A stretch of DNA of 64,000 nt from Arthrinium phaeospermum (lineage: Eukaryota; Ascomycota; Sordariomycetes; Amphisphaeriales; Apiosporaceae). Both the position numbers and the translations under genes were made by a program. The notes below the pieces were generated by a model. It made no database searches. It saw only the letters and a program-made list of their open reading frames with translations, and was not told where the DNA came from. Positions 46,346 through 56,723 of the stretch are shown piece after piece. The DNA lies in contig QYRS01000002.1 of NCBI GenBank assembly GCA_006503535.1, positions 2,666,001-2,730,000 on the forward strand, read 5' to 3'. Position 1 is the first letter of the stretch, and each line of letters begins with the position of its first letter.

Positions 46346-49300
46346 CTTCGGGCTCGTTCTCGGGATAGGGTCTGACCTGAGTGGTCTTAGCAGTGTTATG
46401 TTCGATATTATATTACTGTTGCCTGTTCAATCGGTTTGTGATGGGTTTCTCAGACGCCACGATCTCCGAACAATGCAATATTATCGAGAGTCCGGACATC
46501 CGAAAACATTCGACGGAGCTCCGGCCGACTTACTAACTTACACATCTTTACAAATACTTACTTGTGCCCATGTATAAAAATGCAATGCGGCCTCTTCAAA
46601 CATCAAATTTTCACTTTTCTCCCATTCTCAACTATGTTGATATCATCAGATCTCGGCAGCGTATCTATGTCTCTTCAAATTCCGGGGAAATTGGCATGAC
46701 ATTGGATACATATCTGGTCGACGTTTGCATACGCGTTTCACATTCTAAAGTCCCTTCTACTAAGCCCCTCTGGAGATTTGCCGCAGTCTGGAAGAGGAGG
46801 CAGAGTAGACCAGATTTGCCTTGTTGCCGGCTGCGAGCTCTGATTGGTTGAACGCCACTATACACTGCCACCTTCCGCCAAACATCATGATAGGCTGAGG
46901 ACCGCAAAACGCCTCACGCTATCGGAAATTTGCAAGACGTCGTCGCGTCCCTCATCTGATGGTGTAGCACTATCAGGGAATCAGATCACGTCAGAAAAGA
47001 GGTCAGTCTCGGACTTGTCAGTGCATCGGATAGTTTGGGGCTTGGGCAACCCGCTAGTGCCGTCGTCTGGTACTAAGCCTCCGAAGAAGAACGCTGACTC
47101 GGAAAACCCTGACACCTGATGATTTGACATGCACATCAGTATGGAGATGGGTTTTTGGAATATTTGTCGGATCCGGTCGCCTGGGGCAGTGTGCCGAGCC
47201 ATCCGGGAAGAACCGTGACTCGTCACCCAACTCACGGTGAAGAAGAAGAATACCCCGACCACAAGCCCGGAAGTCAGGGGTTGAGAACGCCATATATCTT
47301 TGTTGGAATGATCAATCGCCCTCTGCGTTGGGAAATAACGAAGGCGCACTAATAGTTGCGCCTTTCATCCTATCAAATATAACCACTCCGTGCGCGCCCT
47401 ACCGCGTACCATAGGTAAAATTGAACATTGCACCTGGTTGGAAAGTCTGTTTCTTCTTAGACATAGGTCCGATTCGAATCGGATGGGATAAGTCACCACC
47501 AAGTGCCCGAGGTTATCGCCCTACACCGCACACGCGCGAGTTGGTTGTGCTAAGAACGGGTGCGTAGTTTGCGGTGTGCAGCATGAAGAGAGCCCGACTC
47601 TGCTCTAGTCGAGTTAGGGAACATAAGACGACTCAGCTGAATCAAGTAGCCAAAGTGAACGTCGGAACACCTGAGGAAGCACGGCGTCGATGTGGTCTTC
47701 CTAGACGGATAATGATGGAAGCCAATGCTGCAACTTTCGTGAGTCAGGTGTGGCGCGCTCGAGACCGGCATTCGCATCGATTCGAGGACTCCCAAAGACA
47801 AATTATTCTTGACCCGGCCATCAAATGAGGAGAGTCTTCCTAAGGATATTCCCGAGTTTCCAAAACCTCGTAGTAGACTGGAAGGATGCCATCGGCTGCG
47901 ATGGGTATCTGGTTCCACTTGGCAGCCAGACCTACTTTCGATTAACTGCTGGCAAAATCTTGTGCAATCTCGGCAACAGCACATCTTTGTCTCGTCCTGA
48001 TCGAAAGCTGTCCGATCGACCGGCGCATCTAATCGCAAGGTAAAAGCAGGGCTTGCATGATCAGCAACGGACGTAATGATGGTTTGTGCATAGTTGAGTC
48101 CATGTTCCCTCCTCCATTCACTGCCTGGGCTACATCTTAGACGATTGAAATATCATGCTTCAAATGAGAGCACTTTCCTTCGCTTGAAGTGCGATCCACA
48201 GCGGCTGCCTGCACGTCATCCGGAAATGGTAAATACTCCTTCTAGCTGTGGGCATGGTGTTGTTTCATACTTATAATGAAGACTACGGGTTGAGCTTGTG
48301 AATAGCCCACGTGGTGAGGGGGGAAAACGTAATCATGGGAACAGTAGTGAGTCCGGTGACTTATGTACATTCACTTGATGTTGTGTTTTGTTGGTTGGCG
48401 AAGGGGTCACCTGCGGCAGGATAATTGGTGACGGAAATCCCGATTACCACGGAGCGACGGTAAACGAATTAGCTGGCAGCCGGATACTCAGTCAGTCATT
48501 CTGAGTAGCACATTGATTGATGATCGCGTTTGCGCCGTCAACGTTTTGAACGTGTGGTTGGCACCGGCCGTCTATTACCGACCGGAGCTTCGGTTACCAA
48601 TGTATTTGATCTTATTGGCACACCCGTGAGCCGGGTAGCAAAGGCAGGGAACATGACGCCAAGGCGCTCGGAAGCGACCTTAACGTTGGGCTGACAGTCT
48701 GGAGGAGATGGGATGCTTTAATGATGCAACTGCGCTATTCCGTCTGCAAGTGCCAAGGCTGGCGAACGGGATGCTGCGAGTAAATTATTCAGAACAGTTC
48801 GATCGGCGCAATCTTCCACCAGCTGCTGACCGAGGAGCCATTTTCTCCCCTTCCTTCTTTCTCGTCCTCTTACTCCTGCCTGGTTCTTCGCATTGTATGA
48901 TCTTCAGTGACCGCCGATCACATATGGCTGGCAGATCAGATCTTGCTTGGCAAATCGCGCGCTCTCACGTGCAGGGCGGGGTACCTATTTTTACGGGTAC
49001 GATGAAAGCTGCGGGCACTTTGTCAAGTAAAACGATGGCCCAGACACATCCATTAGGCCGCCCCAGTCCCCCTCTCTGGGTGCTTGGGGGGCTTGGCTTG
49101 CCGGTTTCTAAGTCATGGGTCTGCTCCAAATGATACGGTTTGAAGCTGTTCAATGCGCTATGCGTGCCAGACCCCAGGAAAAAGGAAAACATTTTGCATC
49201 ATTAAAGGTCTTGGCGTTACCCATCGCTATCATCTATTATTTACCGCCAGTCCTTTATCTAGTAAATTGCGATTGTCAACCTTTGCCCGTTCGTTGGAAC

Positions 49301-49378
49301 CTCCATGCGAACCACCGTACGACCTCACCTGATGGATCAATAGAGCCCTCACTATCACCCCCAATTTTCTAGTCGACC
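46346..49378. other. Long gene-free spacer
   Basis: 3 kb between divergent genes. Open frames (for example 47550-48038 minus) have no domain. It contains a 16-bp perfect palindrome (47468-47483) and a TCACGTG site (48965-48971) in the SulP promoter. Confidence 0.5.
48965..48971 (+). promoter_or_regulatory. TCACGTG (Cbf1/Met4-type) site upstream of SulP gene
   Basis: TCACGTG is the yeast Cbf1-Met4 element of sulfur genes. Here it lies about 410 bp before the ATG of a SulP transporter. E-boxes also serve other bHLH factors. Confidence 0.35.
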
Positions 49379-51864
49379 ATGGCCTCTGGAAGACCTCAGC
49401 CGACGCGGACCAATTCCCGCCAGGCAGGTGATCATGCGCCCATGAACCCGAGCGGTCTTCGTCAGAGCCAGACTCTGTCGTCGACGTCTTTGCATCGAGA
49501 GAACCAACGCGACAGCTATTTTGCCGCTGCGCCAGACGCGACAGACGTCCAAGACCACGAAGTCTCGCGACCCGGCCCGAGCTCTCCAAAGACTCCCGAC
49601 GAATTGAACGAAACGACCTCGCTGCTCCACGAGCATGTGCACTCCGGGCCATGCAACCATGGCACCTTCTCGCCCCGGGCCGGGAGCCCGATGGGAAGCA
49701 GCTATAAAACAACCGACACCGATGCGGGCTCAACCGTAGGTTCGGAGCAGGAGGGCGACCGCGCTGCTAGAACCAACTGGAAAAAGGCCCTGTCGGCCAA
49801 GGTCAAGAGCAAAAAGATGACAAGCTCCCGCGTCCTGGCAGAACAGCATGGATTCAAGGATTCCCCGTTGATGTACCTGTCCTACTATGTCCCTTGTCTG
49901 ATTTGGATGCGACAATACAACTGGACCTGGCTCAAGGGCGACCTCACGGCGGCCATTACGATAGCGTCCATGTACCTCCCCATGGCGCTCTCCTACGCCG
50001 ACAACCTTGCGCATGTTCCTCCGATTAATGGTCTATATGCCTTCGTATTCAATCCTCTCATATATGGGTTGCTGGGAAGCTGCCCGCAGATGGTCGTAGG
50101 GCCCGAAGCTGCAGGCTCGTTGCTGATAGGTTCCATCGTGAAGGGCAGCATCGACGCGGGGGCTGGCGACGACGACAATGGCATCTTGCAAGCCAGGGTT
50201 GCAGGTGTTGCTGTCGGAATCGCGGTGCGACTGTCTTCATCATGGGCGCATTCCGTCTTGGCTTCCTGGATAGCGTGCTTAGTCGACCTTTCCTTCGCGG
50301 TTTCATTTCTGCTATTGGTCTTGTTATCTTCATTGATCAGCTAGTCCCAGTGCTTGGACTGACAAAGGTTGCCGAGCACGCAAGCAGTGTTCAACACCCG
50401 AGCTCTGTGGACAAGCTGAAGTTCTTGTTCAGCCATCTAGGGAAAATCCACAAGCTTTCCGCCGTTGTGGGCGTTGCGAGTTTCACTGTTATTATGGTGC
50501 TTCGGTAAGTACATCGGTCCAATTTAATCCCACCCTGATCGAAGCTCACCATCTCGCAGTGAAGTAAAGAAGCGGGTTCAGCCACGATACCCTTCTATTG
50601 CCTATTTTCCTGACCGTCTCATGGTCGTAGTATTGTCTGCTCTATTAGCCTGGAAACTGGAGTGGGATAGACAAGGCGTCGCAATCCTCGGAAGTGTCGA
50701 AGCCGCATCGGGCCAAACCTTCAGATTTCAAAACCCATTTCAGCTCCAACACATGCCACACATTCGTGAAGCGATGGGAACATCCTTCTTGATTGGCATG
50801 CTTGGCTTCTTTGAATCGTCTGTAGCCGCCAAAAGTCTTGGGACCGGCGACGTCATCGAAGGTATGCAGCTGAGCGCGAATCGGGAGCTCGTTGCTCTCG
50901 GTACCGCCAACCTCGTCGGTTCTTGCTTCATGGCCATTCCCGCCTTCGGTGGCTACGGTAGAAGCAAGGTCAACAAGTCCACTGGCGGCACAAGCCCTAT
51001 GAGCTCCATCTTCGTGAGCATTATCACCGTTTTCTGCATCATGTTCATGCTGCCTTGGTTCTATTACATTCCGGTAAGGGCAATATTCTTTCGCATCAGA
51101 AGATCAACCAACAAACTAATGCTTTCTAGAAACCTGTGCTTTCGGCCCTGATCATCGTGGTAGCGTGGTCCTTGATAGAGGAAGCGCCCCATGATGTCAT
51201 GTTCTTCCTTCGCATTCACGGTTGGTCTGAATTGGCGCTTATGGCTGTTATTCTTCTAGTGACTGTTTTCTTCTCGCTTAACCTTGGTATTGCCATCGGT
51301 ATTGGGTTGTCTCTTTTGCAGGTAATTCAGCATGCCACGCGCCCACGTATCCAGATCTTGGGGCGCATTCCTGGAACGGAGAGGTTTGAGAACGCCGAGG
51401 AAAACCCTGAGCATTTGGAGTTCATCGAGGGCTGCCTCATTGTCAAGATCCCAGAGCCGCTTACTTTTGCCAATACCGGCGAATTGAAGAATCGGCTTCG
51501 AAGGCTGGAACTCTACGGCACGAGCAATGCGCATCCTGCCTTACCACGTCTTCGCCCCCACAAGAGCAATCGTAATGTCATATTTGACATTCACGGTGTA
51601 ACGTCACTCGACGGCTCGGGGGCACAGGTGTTGGAGGAAATTGTAAGGAGCTATCGCGAACGAAACGTCCGGGTCTTCTTCAGTCGCTCGCCAAGCAAGT
51701 CAAACAAGATCTGGGCGCTTCTGCAGCGAAGTGGTATCGTCGAGCTAGTGGGAGGAGAGCGCCACTTTGTTCATGATGTCAAGGACGCTCTACGGATGAC
51801 AGAGTCAGAGGACTTTGAGGAACAGGGCGCCTGCGCAGCGGCAGGCGACAGCACCCCGCTCTAA
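49379..51864 (+). CDS. SulP-family sulfate/anion transporter with STAS domain, frameshift in exon 1
   Basis: Exons 49379-50504, 50560-51073 and 51130-51864, with introns of 55 and 56 nt (GTAAGT, GTAAGG). Total is 2375 nt, one short of a whole number of codons; one added G at 50224-50225 restores about 791 aa and continues AGVAVGIA into VFIMGAFRLGFLDSVL. A long hydrophilic N-terminus (about 170 residues, with ETTSLLHEH) precedes the SulP membrane core (LTAAITIASMYLPMALSYAD, GLYAFVFNPLIYGLLG, VVGPEAAGSLL). The C-terminal STAS domain has FDIHGVTSLDGSGAQVLEE. The long N-terminus recalls yeast Ypr003c more than plasma-membrane Sul1/2; substrate and membrane are not certain. Confidence 0.9.
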
Positions 51865-52165
51865 GGCTTGTCTCGTCTTTGGTTGGACATGATTCCATGA
51901 GCTACATGTTATGTTTAGCATTTTCTGGCGCAAGTTTATTATAGCGGGTTTGCATTTGAAATGCTTGTCCATTATGCATGTATATATCAGACGATAGAGT
52001 AGTTGAGCATAGCGCTGAAACTTCTTTCATGATACCACAAGTGTATTCGCTGTCCATTGCATGCTCACGTTGTATATCGGTTACCTACGGCGTTATGGGT
52101 GAACGTGTACTTCAATTTTCGCTGCACCTTGCTCTTGGCAGCTAATCAATGCTGGCGATCACGGT
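51865..52165. other. Short convergent spacer
   Basis: 301 bp between the 3' ends of the SulP and SET genes; it should hold both polyadenylation regions. Nothing else seen. Confidence 0.4.
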
Positions 52166-53239
52166 CTATTTCGCTAAGCCTTCCTGCGGCAGTCTAAATA
52201 ACCATTTCTCGAAATCCTCGTCGCTCAAATCCTTGGGTATCTTATCCACGCCCTGCTTCCACTGTAGCTTGCCACTGTACAGCGAATGAGATTTGGGGTT
52301 CTTGACATATTGCATCGTCTGCGCCGCCTCGGGGCTGTCCTTGCCCTCGCACGCTACCGTGGCCTCATAGTCTCGCTCGGCGAAGACCTTGGCGCGCGCC
52401 TGGTCGCCGTTGGCGATGGCGATCTGGAAGGCGTCGTGCCAGGCCCGGCTGACCCAGGCGTCGTGGATGCCCTCCTCGCGCAGCAACTTCAGTTTTCGCC
52501 ACGCGTCGTGTAGCATCTCCTCGGCGTGCTTGACGATGCGATTGCCGTCGCCCACCTTCTCGTCCAGCTCGTTGATTTCCTTGCGGCGCCGGTCGCTCGC
52601 GTCGCGCTCCTCGCCGGCCGGGAGGGCGCACGTCGCGCACGCGCACTTGAAGCCGAAGTGATCCTGCAGGATCGTCTGGCGCTCGGCCCAGGGGAACAGC
52701 GCCGGCAGATAGGTGAGGGTGATCTCCTCGCCCGCCGCGATGTCCCGCGCGGCGTGCACCGTCATCCGGCCCAGGTCCTTGCGCCACTTGTTCTGCGCGT
52801 TCGGGACGCAGGCGTGGTTGATGCGGCAGGCGGCCAGGAACAGCCCGGCCTCGGTGGCGCCGCCGCCGCCCATGGGGTGGACGTTGGTGCTGGCGGTGCC
52901 CACGAGGGGCCCGTTGGCCTTGTGGGCGTTGTCGAGGGACAGGAACTCGCGGGCCTGGTCCTTGGTGGCCTTCTTCAGGCCCAGCGCGATGATCTGCTGC
53001 ATCGTCTTGACGTCGTTCACCGTCGTCGGCACGACGAACAGCGGGGCGTCCGCCATGATCCGCTCGCCCCGGGCGATTTTCCGCAGCGCCACCGCACCGT
53101 TTCCGGCGCCCGGGACGGGCTTCACCACCCACATATCTCCGCCCATGTGGTTGGCGGAGATGCTGAGATCGCCCTTCTCCGGGCCTGCTGCGACGTCCTT
53201 GGCGACGTCATCTTTGTTGGGGGCCATGGTCGCTACCAT
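52166..53239 (-). CDS. SET-domain protein (SMYD/Set5-like)
   Basis: Single exon, 357 aa from ATG 53239 (a second ATG at 53227 is equally possible; the frame extends further up without good support). SET motifs are in order: GNGAVALRKIARGERIMAD at the start, RINHACVPNAQNKW (the NHxCxPN block that binds S-adenosylmethionine), GEEITLTYL, and the cysteine-rich post-SET CACATCALP. Members methylate lysines on histones or other proteins. The C-terminal helical part has no recognised domain. The gene is divergent from the ribonucleotide-reductase fusion, about 1 kb away. Confidence 0.9.
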   Translation of the reverse strand: MVATMAPNKDDVAKDVAAGPEKGDLSISANHMGGDMWVVKPVPGAGNGAVALRKIARGERIMADAPLFVVPTTVNDVKTMQQIIALGLKKATKDQAREFLSLDNAHKANGPLVGTASTNVHPMGGGGATEAGLFLAACRINHACVPNAQNKWRKDLGRMTVHAARDIAAGEEITLTYLPALFPWAERQTILQDHFGFKCACATCALPAGEERDASDRRRKEINELDEKVGDGNRIVKHAEEMLHDAWRKLKLLREEGIHDAWVSRAWHDAFQIAIANGDQARAKVFAERDYEATVACEGKDSPEAAQTMQYVKNPKSHSLYSGKLQWKQGVDKIPKDLSDEDFEKWLFRLPQEGLAK

Positions 53240-54242
53240 GAAACTCGGTATGTTATATACAATATATATACTAGTATGTCCGCAGGCGGCAGAGGCAGGT
53301 CGCAAAGAGGTTAGGTCTCTAGCGGGGTTGCGGTACGGTACAATCTCAGCCGCTTCAGTGAATAAAATAATTTGCACCCTGCATGTCTCCACGTGGGGGA
53401 ATCGCTCCACTTTCCCAACCGCCCCTCTACTGCATAATCCTTCTGTTATTTTCACGTTTATTCGACAAAGCACTTACCTCCAGCCATATTTGCAATATTT
53501 GACCATTGGGAACCAGGCCTTGATTGCTTTCGATCGAGACCTCCGTCGCAGGGCGACGCCCAGGATCGGGCGGCATCAATGCCTGAAAGGAACGCTCTCG
53601 TGCCACGCCGACTACTACGCTACGAACTAGACATGCTCGAGTTGATTCCAAGCTAGTCCGGCATTCACCGTACCATTGGATGATCACCTCACCTTACAAT
53701 TGTGGTTTACTTGCTCATGGAATCCCGCGGCCCGCGAGACATGCTGCAGATTGAGCGCACACAACTTGGGGAGGTCGCCGAGACGCGACGATTGATTAGT
53801 TTTATTCCTTCACGCGTGTACCGCGATCATAGGCCACGGGCTTAATCGCTCGACCATTTTTCGTTCTGTCAGCCCATTTCCTCGCCCAAGTCACATGGTA
53901 TCGCGCCCGACTCGCGCGGACTCGACCCCCGAGCCTAGGTCTGTCAGGCGATCGACCAACGCGTCCAGCATCAGATAATCGCACCATGTCTGGAGGCTGA
54001 AATGCATTGGCTGCGCCATGTCGCTGTACGTTGCTGTCATAGTCGCGCCAGAGATATGTTTACGCGCCTGTAGAGATCGAATGCAATGTAACGCGTCAAC
54101 TATCAACACACGTCCAGTAGCTTAAATACGCTGGGATGTCAGCGACAATTGAGAGCTTCAGTGGCACTTTGGGAACGCCGAGCAGACTTTGTGACAGATC
54201 TAATCTCTTTCATTCCACCTCCTAACAGTCACTGGTGCAATC
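53240..54242. other. Divergent promoter region of SET and NrdD-NrdG genes
   Basis: About 1 kb. The end near 54190-54240 is pyrimidine-rich with CTAACAG 14 nt before the ATG, which could be a 5'-UTR intron acceptor or only the leader. No coding potential recognised. Confidence 0.45.
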
Positions 54243-56723
54243 ATGTCGCCGAGCGTTGATCTTGTCGAGGAGTATCTTGCAAAAGGTTCTTGGAAAGGGG
54301 CAGAGAACGCCAACTCGACCTTCTCCCACCAGGGACTGATGCAGTATGTCTCCAATCATATCATCGCGCAGTACTGGGTCGAGAAGGTCTACACGGACGA
54401 AATACGCCAATACGAGCGCGAGAACCGATTCCACATCCACGATCTCGGCTTCCTCAGCGCGTACTGTTCAGGGTGGTCAATCGAGGACATCCTTCTCCAA
54501 GGTTTCGGCGGCGTCGACAACAAGATCCAGTTTCGGCCACCCAAGCATCTCAACACCGCCCTTAACCAGCTCGTCAACTTCCTCTTCACTCTACAGGGCG
54601 AGCTGGCCGGAGCCCAGGCACTTTCCAGCTTCGACACCTACCTTGCGCCCTTCGTTCGGAAGGATGGCTTGACGTACCCTGAAGTCTTCAAGTACGTGCA
54701 GAGCTTCGTCTACTCGCTCAACGTACCTACCCGAAGCGGGTTCCAGGCCCCCTTCACCAACGTGTCGATGGACCTTGTTTGCCCGAAGAAGCTTCGAGAT
54801 CAGTGCGTCGTCATCGGCGGCCAACTCAAGCCTGAATGGGTCTACGCAGACTTTCAGGAGGAGATGGACATGCTCAACCGGGCCTTTGCCGAGGTGATGA
54901 TCCAAGGAGATGGGAATGGCAACATCTTCTCGTTCCCAATCCCGACCTACAACCTCTGGGAGGGGATCGACTGGGAATCCCCGCGATGGAAATCAATTTG
55001 GGAGATGACGGCCAAGTACGGGATCCCATACTTTGGAAACTATTACAACAGCGACTTGGACCCAGAAGATTTTCGATCGATGTGCTGTCGCCTTCGTCTC
55101 GACATCAGCAAATTACACTGCCGAGTGGGTGGCCAGTTCGGTGCAACCCCTTTGACGGGTTCGCTTGGCGTGGTCACAATCAATCTTCCGAATCTCGCCT
55201 ACTGCTCTGGCGGCTCGAAGGACACATTCATTTCGAAGTTATCGGATACTCTGAGGGTAGCGAAGGACTCCCTAGAGATCAAACGCAAGAGGGTGGATGA
55301 GAACGAGGCTCTGTACCCCTACGCAGCGCACTACCTTTCTGCAACAAAGCATCGTACCGGATCCTGCTGGACGAACCACTTCAGCACCATCGGCGTGAAT
55401 GGCATGAACGAGGCTTTGGTTGCTCTGCTTGGCGAGGGCATCGAGAAACAAAAGGACTTCGCACTTGAGGTCTTGGAGTTTATCAAAACGCGACTTCAGG
55501 ATTTCCAGGATGAAACTGGCAACTTGTATAACCTGGAGGCCACTCCAGCCGAAAGCACGTGTTACAAGTTAGCCAAGAGAGACAAGGAGCTGTTTCCTGA
55601 TCAGGATATCCCAACCTTCTACACCAACTCGACCATGCTTCCGGTCGACAGCACAGATGACCTGTTCGAAGCCCTTGGGCACCAAGAGGATCTCCAGTGT
55701 GCATACACAGGCGGTACTGTCTTCCACGCGTTCTTGGGCGAGCAGCTGCATAGCTGGGAACTTGCACGGGACTTGGTCAGGATATTGACAGCTCGATTCC
55801 GCATACCATACGTCACCCTAACTCCGACCTTCAGCATCTGCCAGACACATGGCTATCTGCCTGGAGAGCAACCCCAATGCTCGGTCTGTGGCGATTCGAC
55901 CCTCGTCTATTCACGCATCGTGGGCTACTTCCGTCCGACTCGAGACTGGAACAAGGGCAAGGCGAAGGAATTCGTAGCCCGTAAGACCTACCGGTACATC
56001 ACGAACTCGCCGGCGGTGGATAACGGGAGTGGACTGCTGGATCTCGAGCGTCAAATTGCCGATATCGCCGATCTTCCGGTGGCAGGATACATCAAGAACA
56101 CAGTCAGCGACTATCCCGGCAAGGTGCAGGCAGCGATCATGTTCACATCGCGGTGTAACCTTGCTTGCCCATGGTGTCACAATGGACCGCTGGTTCGCGG
56201 CGAGCGCGATGGGATGACGAGTCTCGATGTCTTCAGGCACGTATCGTCGACCACCCATAAGTCGTTGGTCATCTCTGGAGGCGAGCCGACCATCCACAAG
56301 GGCCTGGTCCCCTTCCTCCGGATTCTCAAGAATGCGGGCGTCAGTGTCAAGCTGGACTCGAACGGCACGGCGCCCGAGGTGCTGCGCCAGGTGTTCGCCG
56401 AGAAGCTCGTCGACTTCGTCGCCATGGACATCAAGTGCGCGCTGGAGAACTACAAGGCGGTGACCGGCAAGAGGATCGACCCGAGCGTGCTCGAGGACAG
56501 CATCGGGCTGATCAAGGCGAGCGGCGTCCCGTACGAGTTCCGGACGACGGTGGTGCCGTCGCTGGTGGACGTCGAAGACCTGTTCGAGGCCAAGCGCTTG
56601 GCCGGAGGGAAGCTCAAGCTGCAGCGATTCCGCAAGGGGGACACTAACTTGGCTAAGCGCTACAGGGACCTGGATCAACACACCGATAAGGAATTCAATG
56701 CGCTGGTCGCGCAGTTGGCGTAG
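54243..56723 (+). CDS. nrdD-nrdG: Fused anaerobic ribonucleotide reductase and its radical-SAM activase (NrdD-NrdG)
   Basis: One uninterrupted 826-codon frame. Residues about 1-600 are a class III (oxygen-sensitive, glycyl-radical) ribonucleotide reductase. It opens directly in the catalytic barrel (GAENANSTFSHQGLMQY, then RFHIHDLGF) without an ATP-cone. Candidate thiyl cysteines lie in MCCRLRLD (280-287). A zinc site is C533-x2-H536 with C546-x2-C549. The glycyl-radical loop SRIVGYFRP has the radical Gly at 561. Residues about 625-826 are the activase: DYPGKVQAAIMF, the iron-sulfur CxxxCxxC at C638/C642/C645 (CNLACPWC) and SGGEPT (678-683), a radical-SAM fold that makes the glycyl radical. 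In bacteria these are separate proteins. The intron-free frame and bacterial-type domains suggest horizontal transfer. It would make deoxynucleotides without oxygen; the electron donor is unknown. Confidence 0.95.
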   Translation: MSPSVDLVEEYLAKGSWKGAENANSTFSHQGLMQYVSNHIIAQYWVEKVYTDEIRQYERENRFHIHDLGFLSAYCSGWSIEDILLQGFGGVDNKIQFRPPKHLNTALNQLVNFLFTLQGELAGAQALSSFDTYLAPFVRKDGLTYPEVFKYVQSFVYSLNVPTRSGFQAPFTNVSMDLVCPKKLRDQCVVIGGQLKPEWVYADFQEEMDMLNRAFAEVMIQGDGNGNIFSFPIPTYNLWEGIDWESPRWKSIWEMTAKYGIPYFGNYYNSDLDPEDFRSMCCRLRLDISKLHCRVGGQFGATPLTGSLGVVTINLPNLAYCSGGSKDTFISKLSDTLRVAKDSLEIKRKRVDENEALYPYAAHYLSATKHRTGSCWTNHFSTIGVNGMNEALVALLGEGIEKQKDFALEVLEFIKTRLQDFQDETGNLYNLEATPAESTCYKLAKRDKELFPDQDIPTFYTNSTMLPVDSTDDLFEALGHQEDLQCAYTGGTVFHAFLGEQLHSWELARDLVRILTARFRIPYVTLTPTFSICQTHGYLPGEQPQCSVCGDSTLVYSRIVGYFRPTRDWNKGKAKEFVARKTYRYITNSPAVDNGSGLLDLERQIADIADLPVAGYIKNTVSDYPGKVQAAIMFTSRCNLACPWCHNGPLVRGERDGMTSLDVFRHVSSTTHKSLVISGGEPTIHKGLVPFLRILKNAGVSVKLDSNGTAPEVLRQVFAEKLVDFVAMDIKCALENYKAVTGKRIDPSVLEDSIGLIKASGVPYEFRTTVVPSLVDVEDLFEAKRLAGGKLKLQRFRKGDTNLAKRYRDLDQHTDKEFNALVAQLA

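Follow-up and report, generated by a model that had tools for sequence, protein, structure and literature searches.

The question raised by the locus described here is whether a mould possesses a class III ribonucleotide reductase (RNR) fused to its own activase, from where such a gene would have come, and whether it could supply deoxyribonucleotides without oxygen; as a rule, eukaryotes obtain their dNTPs through an oxygen-dependent class I RNR. The analysed window, that is, the whole stretch of 64,000 nucleotides to which the coordinates of the fungal gene refer, comprises positions 2,666,001-2,730,000 of contig C2 of Arthrinium phaeospermum, whose genome amounts to 48,449,939 bases in 19 contigs.

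The fused nrdD-nrdG gene (NrdDG) occupies positions 54243..56723 on the plus strand and encodes 826 amino acids plus stop in a single unbroken frame, running from ATG to TAG without an internal stop codon. In 200 mononucleotide shuffles of the 10-kb stretch surrounding the gene, the longest open stretch was 269 codons, and the 826 codons of the ORF are thus beyond chance. The NrdD catalytic part (residues 21-583; 54303..55991, plus strand) is matched by the Pfam NRDD model PF13597 over the whole profile length (positions 1-562 of 562; E 3.6e-177, 591 bits). The ORF also exceeds the curated cut-offs of the NCBIfam models NF006126, ribonucleoside triphosphate reductase (836 bits versus 548; profile positions 102-682 of 684), and TIGR02487, NrdD (463 bits versus 326). 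A linker of about 29 amino acids (residues 584-612; 55992..56078, plus strand), lying outside both domain alignments, leads to the NrdG activase part (residues 613-826; 56079..56720, plus strand), which was also modelled separately; here TIGR02495, NrdG2, matches residues 613-785 with 144.3 bits versus a cut-off of 131.15, and Pfam Radical_SAM PF04055 matches residues 633-774 (E 1.8e-13). Pfam, NCBIfam, and the motifs described below hence confirm the original prediction in that the key sites of NrdD and NrdG are all found in one frame. The same sharing of an open reading frame is known from the eukaryotic NrdDG clan (Lundin et al. 2010).

The gene is seated in the interior of C2, which measures at least 3.2 Mb, and the NrdDG query finds one match only in the 48.4-Mb genome, at 2.72 Mb of that contig. 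It is adjoined by a SET-domain ORF on the minus strand (52166..53473 as listed, start uncertain; PF00856, E 2.5e-12), and other eukaryotic genes in the window encode a sulphate permease, a P-type ATPase, and HET, FYVE/Rabenosyn, and Whi5-like proteins; at 2.92 Mb, C2 also encodes a flavodoxin-domain protein resembling TYW1. Matches to the large and small subunits of class I RNR are located on C3 and C9, so that domain and genome matches agree with the claim that a fungus with a class I enzyme also possesses a class III enzyme joined to its activase. GC3 of NrdDG is 0.73, compared with 0.70 for the ORF of the host class I large subunit and with 0.52-0.90 for host ORFs generally. The codon usage of NrdDG correlates with that of eight pooled host ORFs at 0.83 (single host ORFs, 0.33 to 0.87) and with that of ten bacterial nrdD genes at -0.63 to 0.61; host and bacterial usage are not cleanly separable by this measure, the highest bacterial value (0.61, L011) falling within the host range of 0.33-0.87. 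These data bear on the possibility that bacterial contamination was assembled into a fungal contig, which had been named as one of two findings that would overturn the claim. The protein is indeed bacterial in kind, and the linkage of gene and host rests on the assembly; yet the position at 2.72 Mb of C2 in a genome of 19 contigs, the adjoining SET-domain gene and further eukaryotic neighbours, and the host-like pooled codon usage all speak for fungal linkage. Moreover, a fused gene is found at none of 42 related loci (two of them unjudgeable), yet the published ascomycete homologues are fused. Contamination is very unlikely, to the point of being scarcely credible. By halves, GC3 is 0.84 for NrdG and 0.70 for NrdD, a gap that is not taken as a sign of two origins; within the NrdG part, the block at 56343-56642 reaches 0.96, compared with 0.64-0.77 in the seven preceding 300-base blocks. 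A Starship element was considered as a neighbour of NrdDG and rejected, since none of the at least 14 DUF3435 matches in the genome lies on C2 among the matches listed.

As a kind, fungal NrdDG has been known since 2010. Class III RNRs were then described from five fungi and three Phytophthora, eight in all (Lundin et al. 2010, PMC3019208); the hosts are Fusarium oxysporum, Gibberella moniliformis, G. zeae, Nectria haematococca, Schizosaccharomyces japonicus, and Phytophthora spp. NrdD and NrdG share one reading frame in all eight, S. japonicus possessing an unfused nrdD in addition, and a single bacterial transfer with later spread is proposed (PMC3019208). As far as the available passages go, a review of 2011 ascribes the fusion to class III RNRs of eukaryotes in general (PMC3267527), and a later study regards the eukaryotic NrdD-NrdG fusions as late in origin (PMC4390871). 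The gene studied here resembles the published fungal and oomycete genes, by description and not by sequence, in its single frame and its inferred bacterial origin, ascomycetes being included among the hosts. A fused NrdD-NrdG of bacterial origin was likewise reported in 2016 from Trepomonas sp. PC1 (PMC4967989, in part), where, however, the eukaryotic host is a diplomonad, and an NRDD domain is mentioned for anaerobic gut fungi in the portion at hand of PMC6712302. The open-licence literature was covered mostly through titles and the beginnings of abstracts, and among the matches listed no enzymology of a fungal or other eukaryotic NrdDG was recognised. The original statement that no characterised fusion is known from a eukaryote must accordingly be divided: the fusion itself had already been reported in 2010, while the word "characterised" may hold. 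Added here are the absence of fused relatives from the 42 loci (two unjudgeable), the prediction of the reductant, two squalene-hopene cyclases, and the absence of PF01228 matches.

The 42 relatives, a sample chosen by similarity and not a survey, comprise 36 loci from prokaryote genomes, two viral contigs, two plasmids, and two phages. In none of them do the two parts share a frame, although L034 and L037, which break off within nrdD, are unjudgeable in this respect. In 34 of them NrdG is encoded near NrdD, and the stretch examined is free of NrdG in the remaining eight, which include L034 and L037. Identity of the fungal protein to its relatives is 43-54% for the NrdD part (17 rows) and 30-40% for the NrdG part (21 rows). 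Phylogeny of each half, proposed along with the original prediction as a check, left the specific donor unnamed. The NrdD tree, rooted at its midpoint, places the fungal row within a starred set of 28 rows (100/98); its terminal branch there measures 1.45, and no sister is resolved. In the NrdG tree the row is unplaced, with a branch of 2.1. Neither tree gives it a starred small group, and no bacterial donor can be named from them. Prokaryotic origin of the NrdDG gene is well supported, and the prokaryotic source was most likely bacterial. In its motifs NrdDG is the same as the bacterial MCCR-type NrdD accompanied by NrdG2 (NF006126/PRK08270 and TIGR02495); these relatives, however, are unfused (two unjudgeable) and carry an ATP-cone in seven of the nine scanned, whereas the fungal protein is fused and without cone.

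Residue counts and the NrdD tree are based on 33 prokaryotic or viral rows out of the 42 loci; the nine left out (L029, L032-L037, L047, and L048) have no single uninterrupted match spanning more than 450 residues, being interrupted or truncated. Identity across the 33 rows reaches 95% or more in 135 NrdD columns, of which the fungal protein keeps 128, departing at residues 16, 46, 150, 227, 242, 298, and 394. The conserved barrel cysteine is Cys75 (54465..54467, plus strand; 33/33 rows), which aligns with Cys125 of Thermotoga maritima, as numbered in the available part of PMC4493059. The finger loop MCCR with the candidate thiyl cysteine(s) is formed by residues 280-283 (55080..55091, plus strand) and is present in every one of the 33 rows. 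Equally invariant is Glu432 (55536..55538, plus strand), which aligns with a Glu of T. maritima NrdD; on the strength of this alignment, it is probably the glutamate found in the active site of NrdD enzymes able to use thioredoxin. Further downstream follow the predicted zinc site of Cys533, His536, Cys546, and Cys549 (55839..55889, plus strand; 32, 31, 32, and 31 of 33 rows, respectively) and, in the C-terminal glycyl loop motif SRIVGYF, the predicted glycyl radical residue Gly561 (55923..55925, plus strand). This loop recurs in the aligned relatives on which the NrdD identity range is based. In the NrdG part, the motif CNLACPWC (56154..56177, plus strand) supplies the cluster ligands Cys638, Cys642, and Cys645, each conserved in 34/34 NrdG rows, and the radical-SAM motif SGGEP is found at residues 678-682 (56274..56288, plus strand), GGEP likewise occurring in all 34. 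A mixed alignment, A1, was discarded; it contained few invariant columns, and its NrdG rows were apparently misplaced.

A glycine aligns with Gly561 in 28 of the 33 rows, although in loci with a detached segment the aligned glycine is not the true site. By pattern search, 23 of the 42 loci have the glycyl loop on the main NrdD ORF, and 13 have it on a small ORF of its own; the pattern missed L051, where the loop is present, and L027, where it resides on a small ORF. Detached segments are found at L005:5747-5881, L006:5722-5889, L014:5754-5918, L016:5774-6061, L023:5706-6083, L031:5809-6042, L032:6251-6415, and L049:3195-3374, and at five more loci. Nine of the 13 loci are labelled candidate-phyla bacteria, and in Azospira (L049) the small glycyl ORF is annotated as an nrdD gene of its own. 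A separate peculiarity concerns L032-L036, L047, and L048, whose NrdD ORFs of 844-1342 amino acids contain insertions; these lie near residue 168 of the query and, at the finger-loop cysteines, near residues 281/282. With Pfam intein models, four of these loci were scanned; L035 and L036 match below the cut-off, and L032 and L048 give no match.

The NrdG half modelled alone (residues 603-826, alignment of 22 rows) reached a mean pLDDT of 92.8, and among PDB structures its three top matches all belong to pyruvate formate-lyase (PFL) activating enzyme. The full-length model, for which the alignment comprised the query and NrdD rows only, averages a pLDDT of 67.2, the finger loop and the entire NrdG half scoring low; it is uninformative on how the halves meet. 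By sequence, the best PDB match of NrdDG is T. maritima NrdD (4coi, 4u3e; E 2.3e-34).

The Pfam scan found no ATP-cone (PF03477) in the fungal ORF, and since the NF006126 match begins at profile position 102, the ORF starts approximately where the cone of the relatives ends. An incomplete gene model, in which an upstream exon would restore the cone, might be suspected from the Pfam cone present in seven of nine relatives scanned (L009, L011, L032, L035, L036, L048, and L051; absent from L050 and L052). This frequency is taken from Pfam and not from a home-made cone profile, which marks 38 of the 42 loci but overruns the cone and counts L050, unsupported by Pfam. A search with the profile of the relatives' N-terminus in all six frames of positions 48000-54400 gave no credible cone match (best E 4.9), however, and the open frame extends only 13 codons upstream of the ATG (839 versus 826); a phage row (L052) and a plasmid row (L050) are also without cone. 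An overlooked exon is thus decidedly improbable. Absence of the cone is not unique to the fungal protein, because the NrdD of T. maritima and that of phage T4 are likewise described as lacking it in the available part of PMC11226230.

Taken together, NrdDG is most likely a single-chain class III RNR, derived from a horizontally acquired bacterial nrdD-nrdG pair and making dNTPs in anoxia. Its function is argued for by family scores above curated cut-offs in both halves, by the retention of 128 of 135 conserved columns together with Cys75, MCCR, Glu432, the cluster cysteines, and GGEP, by the confident model of the NrdG half with its resemblance to PFL activase, and by the published ascomycete precedent of the same architecture; that it is a gene of the host is indicated by the single match, the position inside the contig, the class I RNR elsewhere, and the host-like GC3 and pooled codon usage. 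As judged from the sequence, the seven changed columns and the long branches of both halves count against it, and, along with the missing cone, they would suit a gene that has ceased to act as an RNR, whether it is a relic or encodes a glycyl-radical protein serving some other purpose. Such a gene would hardly be expected to show 826 open codons, intact catalytic motifs, and 43-54% NrdD identity to 17 relatives; conservation over so long a branch suggests selection, and we consider a relic or other role unlikely.

For the single-chain class III RNR, the following course of events can be envisaged. A bacterial nrdD-nrdG pair would have been acquired horizontally in the fungal lineage, with loss of the ATP-cone and merging of the two frames. 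In the absence of oxygen, the NrdG part would bind a [4Fe-4S] cluster and SAM and generate a 5'-deoxyadenosyl radical, which would abstract hydrogen from Gly561 to give the glycyl radical; activation could take place either in cis or across a dimer. From there the radical would move on to Cys281 or Cys282 of the finger loop, which would initiate reduction of ribonucleoside triphosphates, and the cycle would be closed by formate or thioredoxin. As the cone is absent, the enzyme should not be subject to shut-off by dATP at that site. The outcome, dNTP supply in anoxia, where the class I enzyme cannot form its radical, is plausible for NrdDG.

What the fusion itself contributes may be seen differently. 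The covalent tie may hold the activase beside its target. According to the argument advanced in PMC3019208, it is through fusion that the second gene of an acquired operon can be expressed in a eukaryote, an explanation that needs no special chemistry and is at least as good as tethering. This expression argument from Lundin et al. 2010 (PMC3019208) also enters a further alternative, to which the present analysis adds a cut: one chain would be made and then cleaved at the linker, with NrdD and NrdG acting apart and the fusion serving expression. The linker of about 29 amino acids outside both domains and the vicinity of NrdG to NrdD in 34 of 42 relatives would agree with this. Separate expression of NrdD and NrdG finds no support in the sequence, and cleavage of the chain appears rather unlikely. 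We know of no cleavage site in an NrdDG linker. A class III RNR that functions in the mould would account for how DNA can be replicated in anoxic soil, sediment, or host tissue; fused NrdDG would lend itself naturally to studies of the encounter between an activase and its glycyl-radical enzyme.

The same fungal genome encodes two squalene-hopene cyclases that exceed the equivalog cut-off (595 and 586 bits versus 431), at C17:40971-41975 (L061) and C6:672166-673149 (L062); two further proteins pass only the general squalene/oxidosqualene cyclase cut-off. Together with NrdDG, these cyclases are consistent with an oxygen-poor phase of life and growth at little oxygen, without proving it; other fungi possess hopene cyclases as well. 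For S. japonicus, an acquired squalene-hopene cyclase and anaerobic dNTP synthesis are named together as adaptations in the available part of PMC8520639, where the printed "Class-I" RNR is taken for class III; both kinds of gene, NrdDG and squalene-hopene cyclase, are thus shared by S. japonicus and the present genome. It is conceivable, if on balance doubtful, that a self-activating one-chain RNR without dATP off-switch and the two squalene-hopene cyclases constitute acquired bypasses of two oxygen-dependent steps, those to dNTPs and to sterols, which would jointly permit DNA replication and growth of the mould without oxygen, activation proceeding within the polypeptide or dimer and not through a diffusing activase.

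Regarding other radical enzymes, the glycyl-radical model PF01228 has no match in the fungal genome, so that PFL is an unlikely source of formate and another source would be needed. The idea of a partner for NrdDG, whether a second glycyl-radical enzyme or a PFL activase, was dismissed: beyond the lack of a PF01228 match, five of the six other radical-SAM places resemble MoaA, LipA, viperin, TYW1, and Elp3, and the sixth received no NCBIfam name. The viperin-like protein (C1:4691325-4691786, L042) scores 247 bits, above the NF038283 cut-off of 180, and stays under the cut-off of TIGR04278. Matches to dihydroorotate dehydrogenase and to Fe_hyd_lg_C also occur in the genome, the latter presumably representing the cytosolic iron-sulphur protein Nar1.

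As to the reductant, PMC9669993, in the available part, distinguishes two types of class III RNR, MGCR and MCCR, and argues that enzymes of the latter type, where the methionine is present, seem to be equipped for formate or thioredoxin. By the criteria for the subtypes NrdD1-3 set out in the accessible text of PMC4493059, NrdDG has the features of thioredoxin-capable NrdD2, a further finger-loop cysteine (Cys281/Cys282) and the probable active-site Glu432. From Met280, Cys281, Cys282, and Glu432, either formate or thioredoxin is predicted as reductant. T. maritima NrdD shares with the fungal protein the double-cysteine finger loop and the lack of an ATP-cone, but its loop reads SCCR instead of MCCR and its NrdG is a separate protein; it is thought to be restricted to thioredoxin or another protein reductant (PMC4493059, PMC9669993, both in part). 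A different arrangement is encountered in the phage NrdD at L051:2470-4899, which has nrdG upstream and carries a C-terminal glutaredoxin/thioredoxin-like domain (PF00462, E 1.1e-8); judged by its sequence, this fused domain, possibly a built-in reductant, favours a protein reductant for the phage enzyme.
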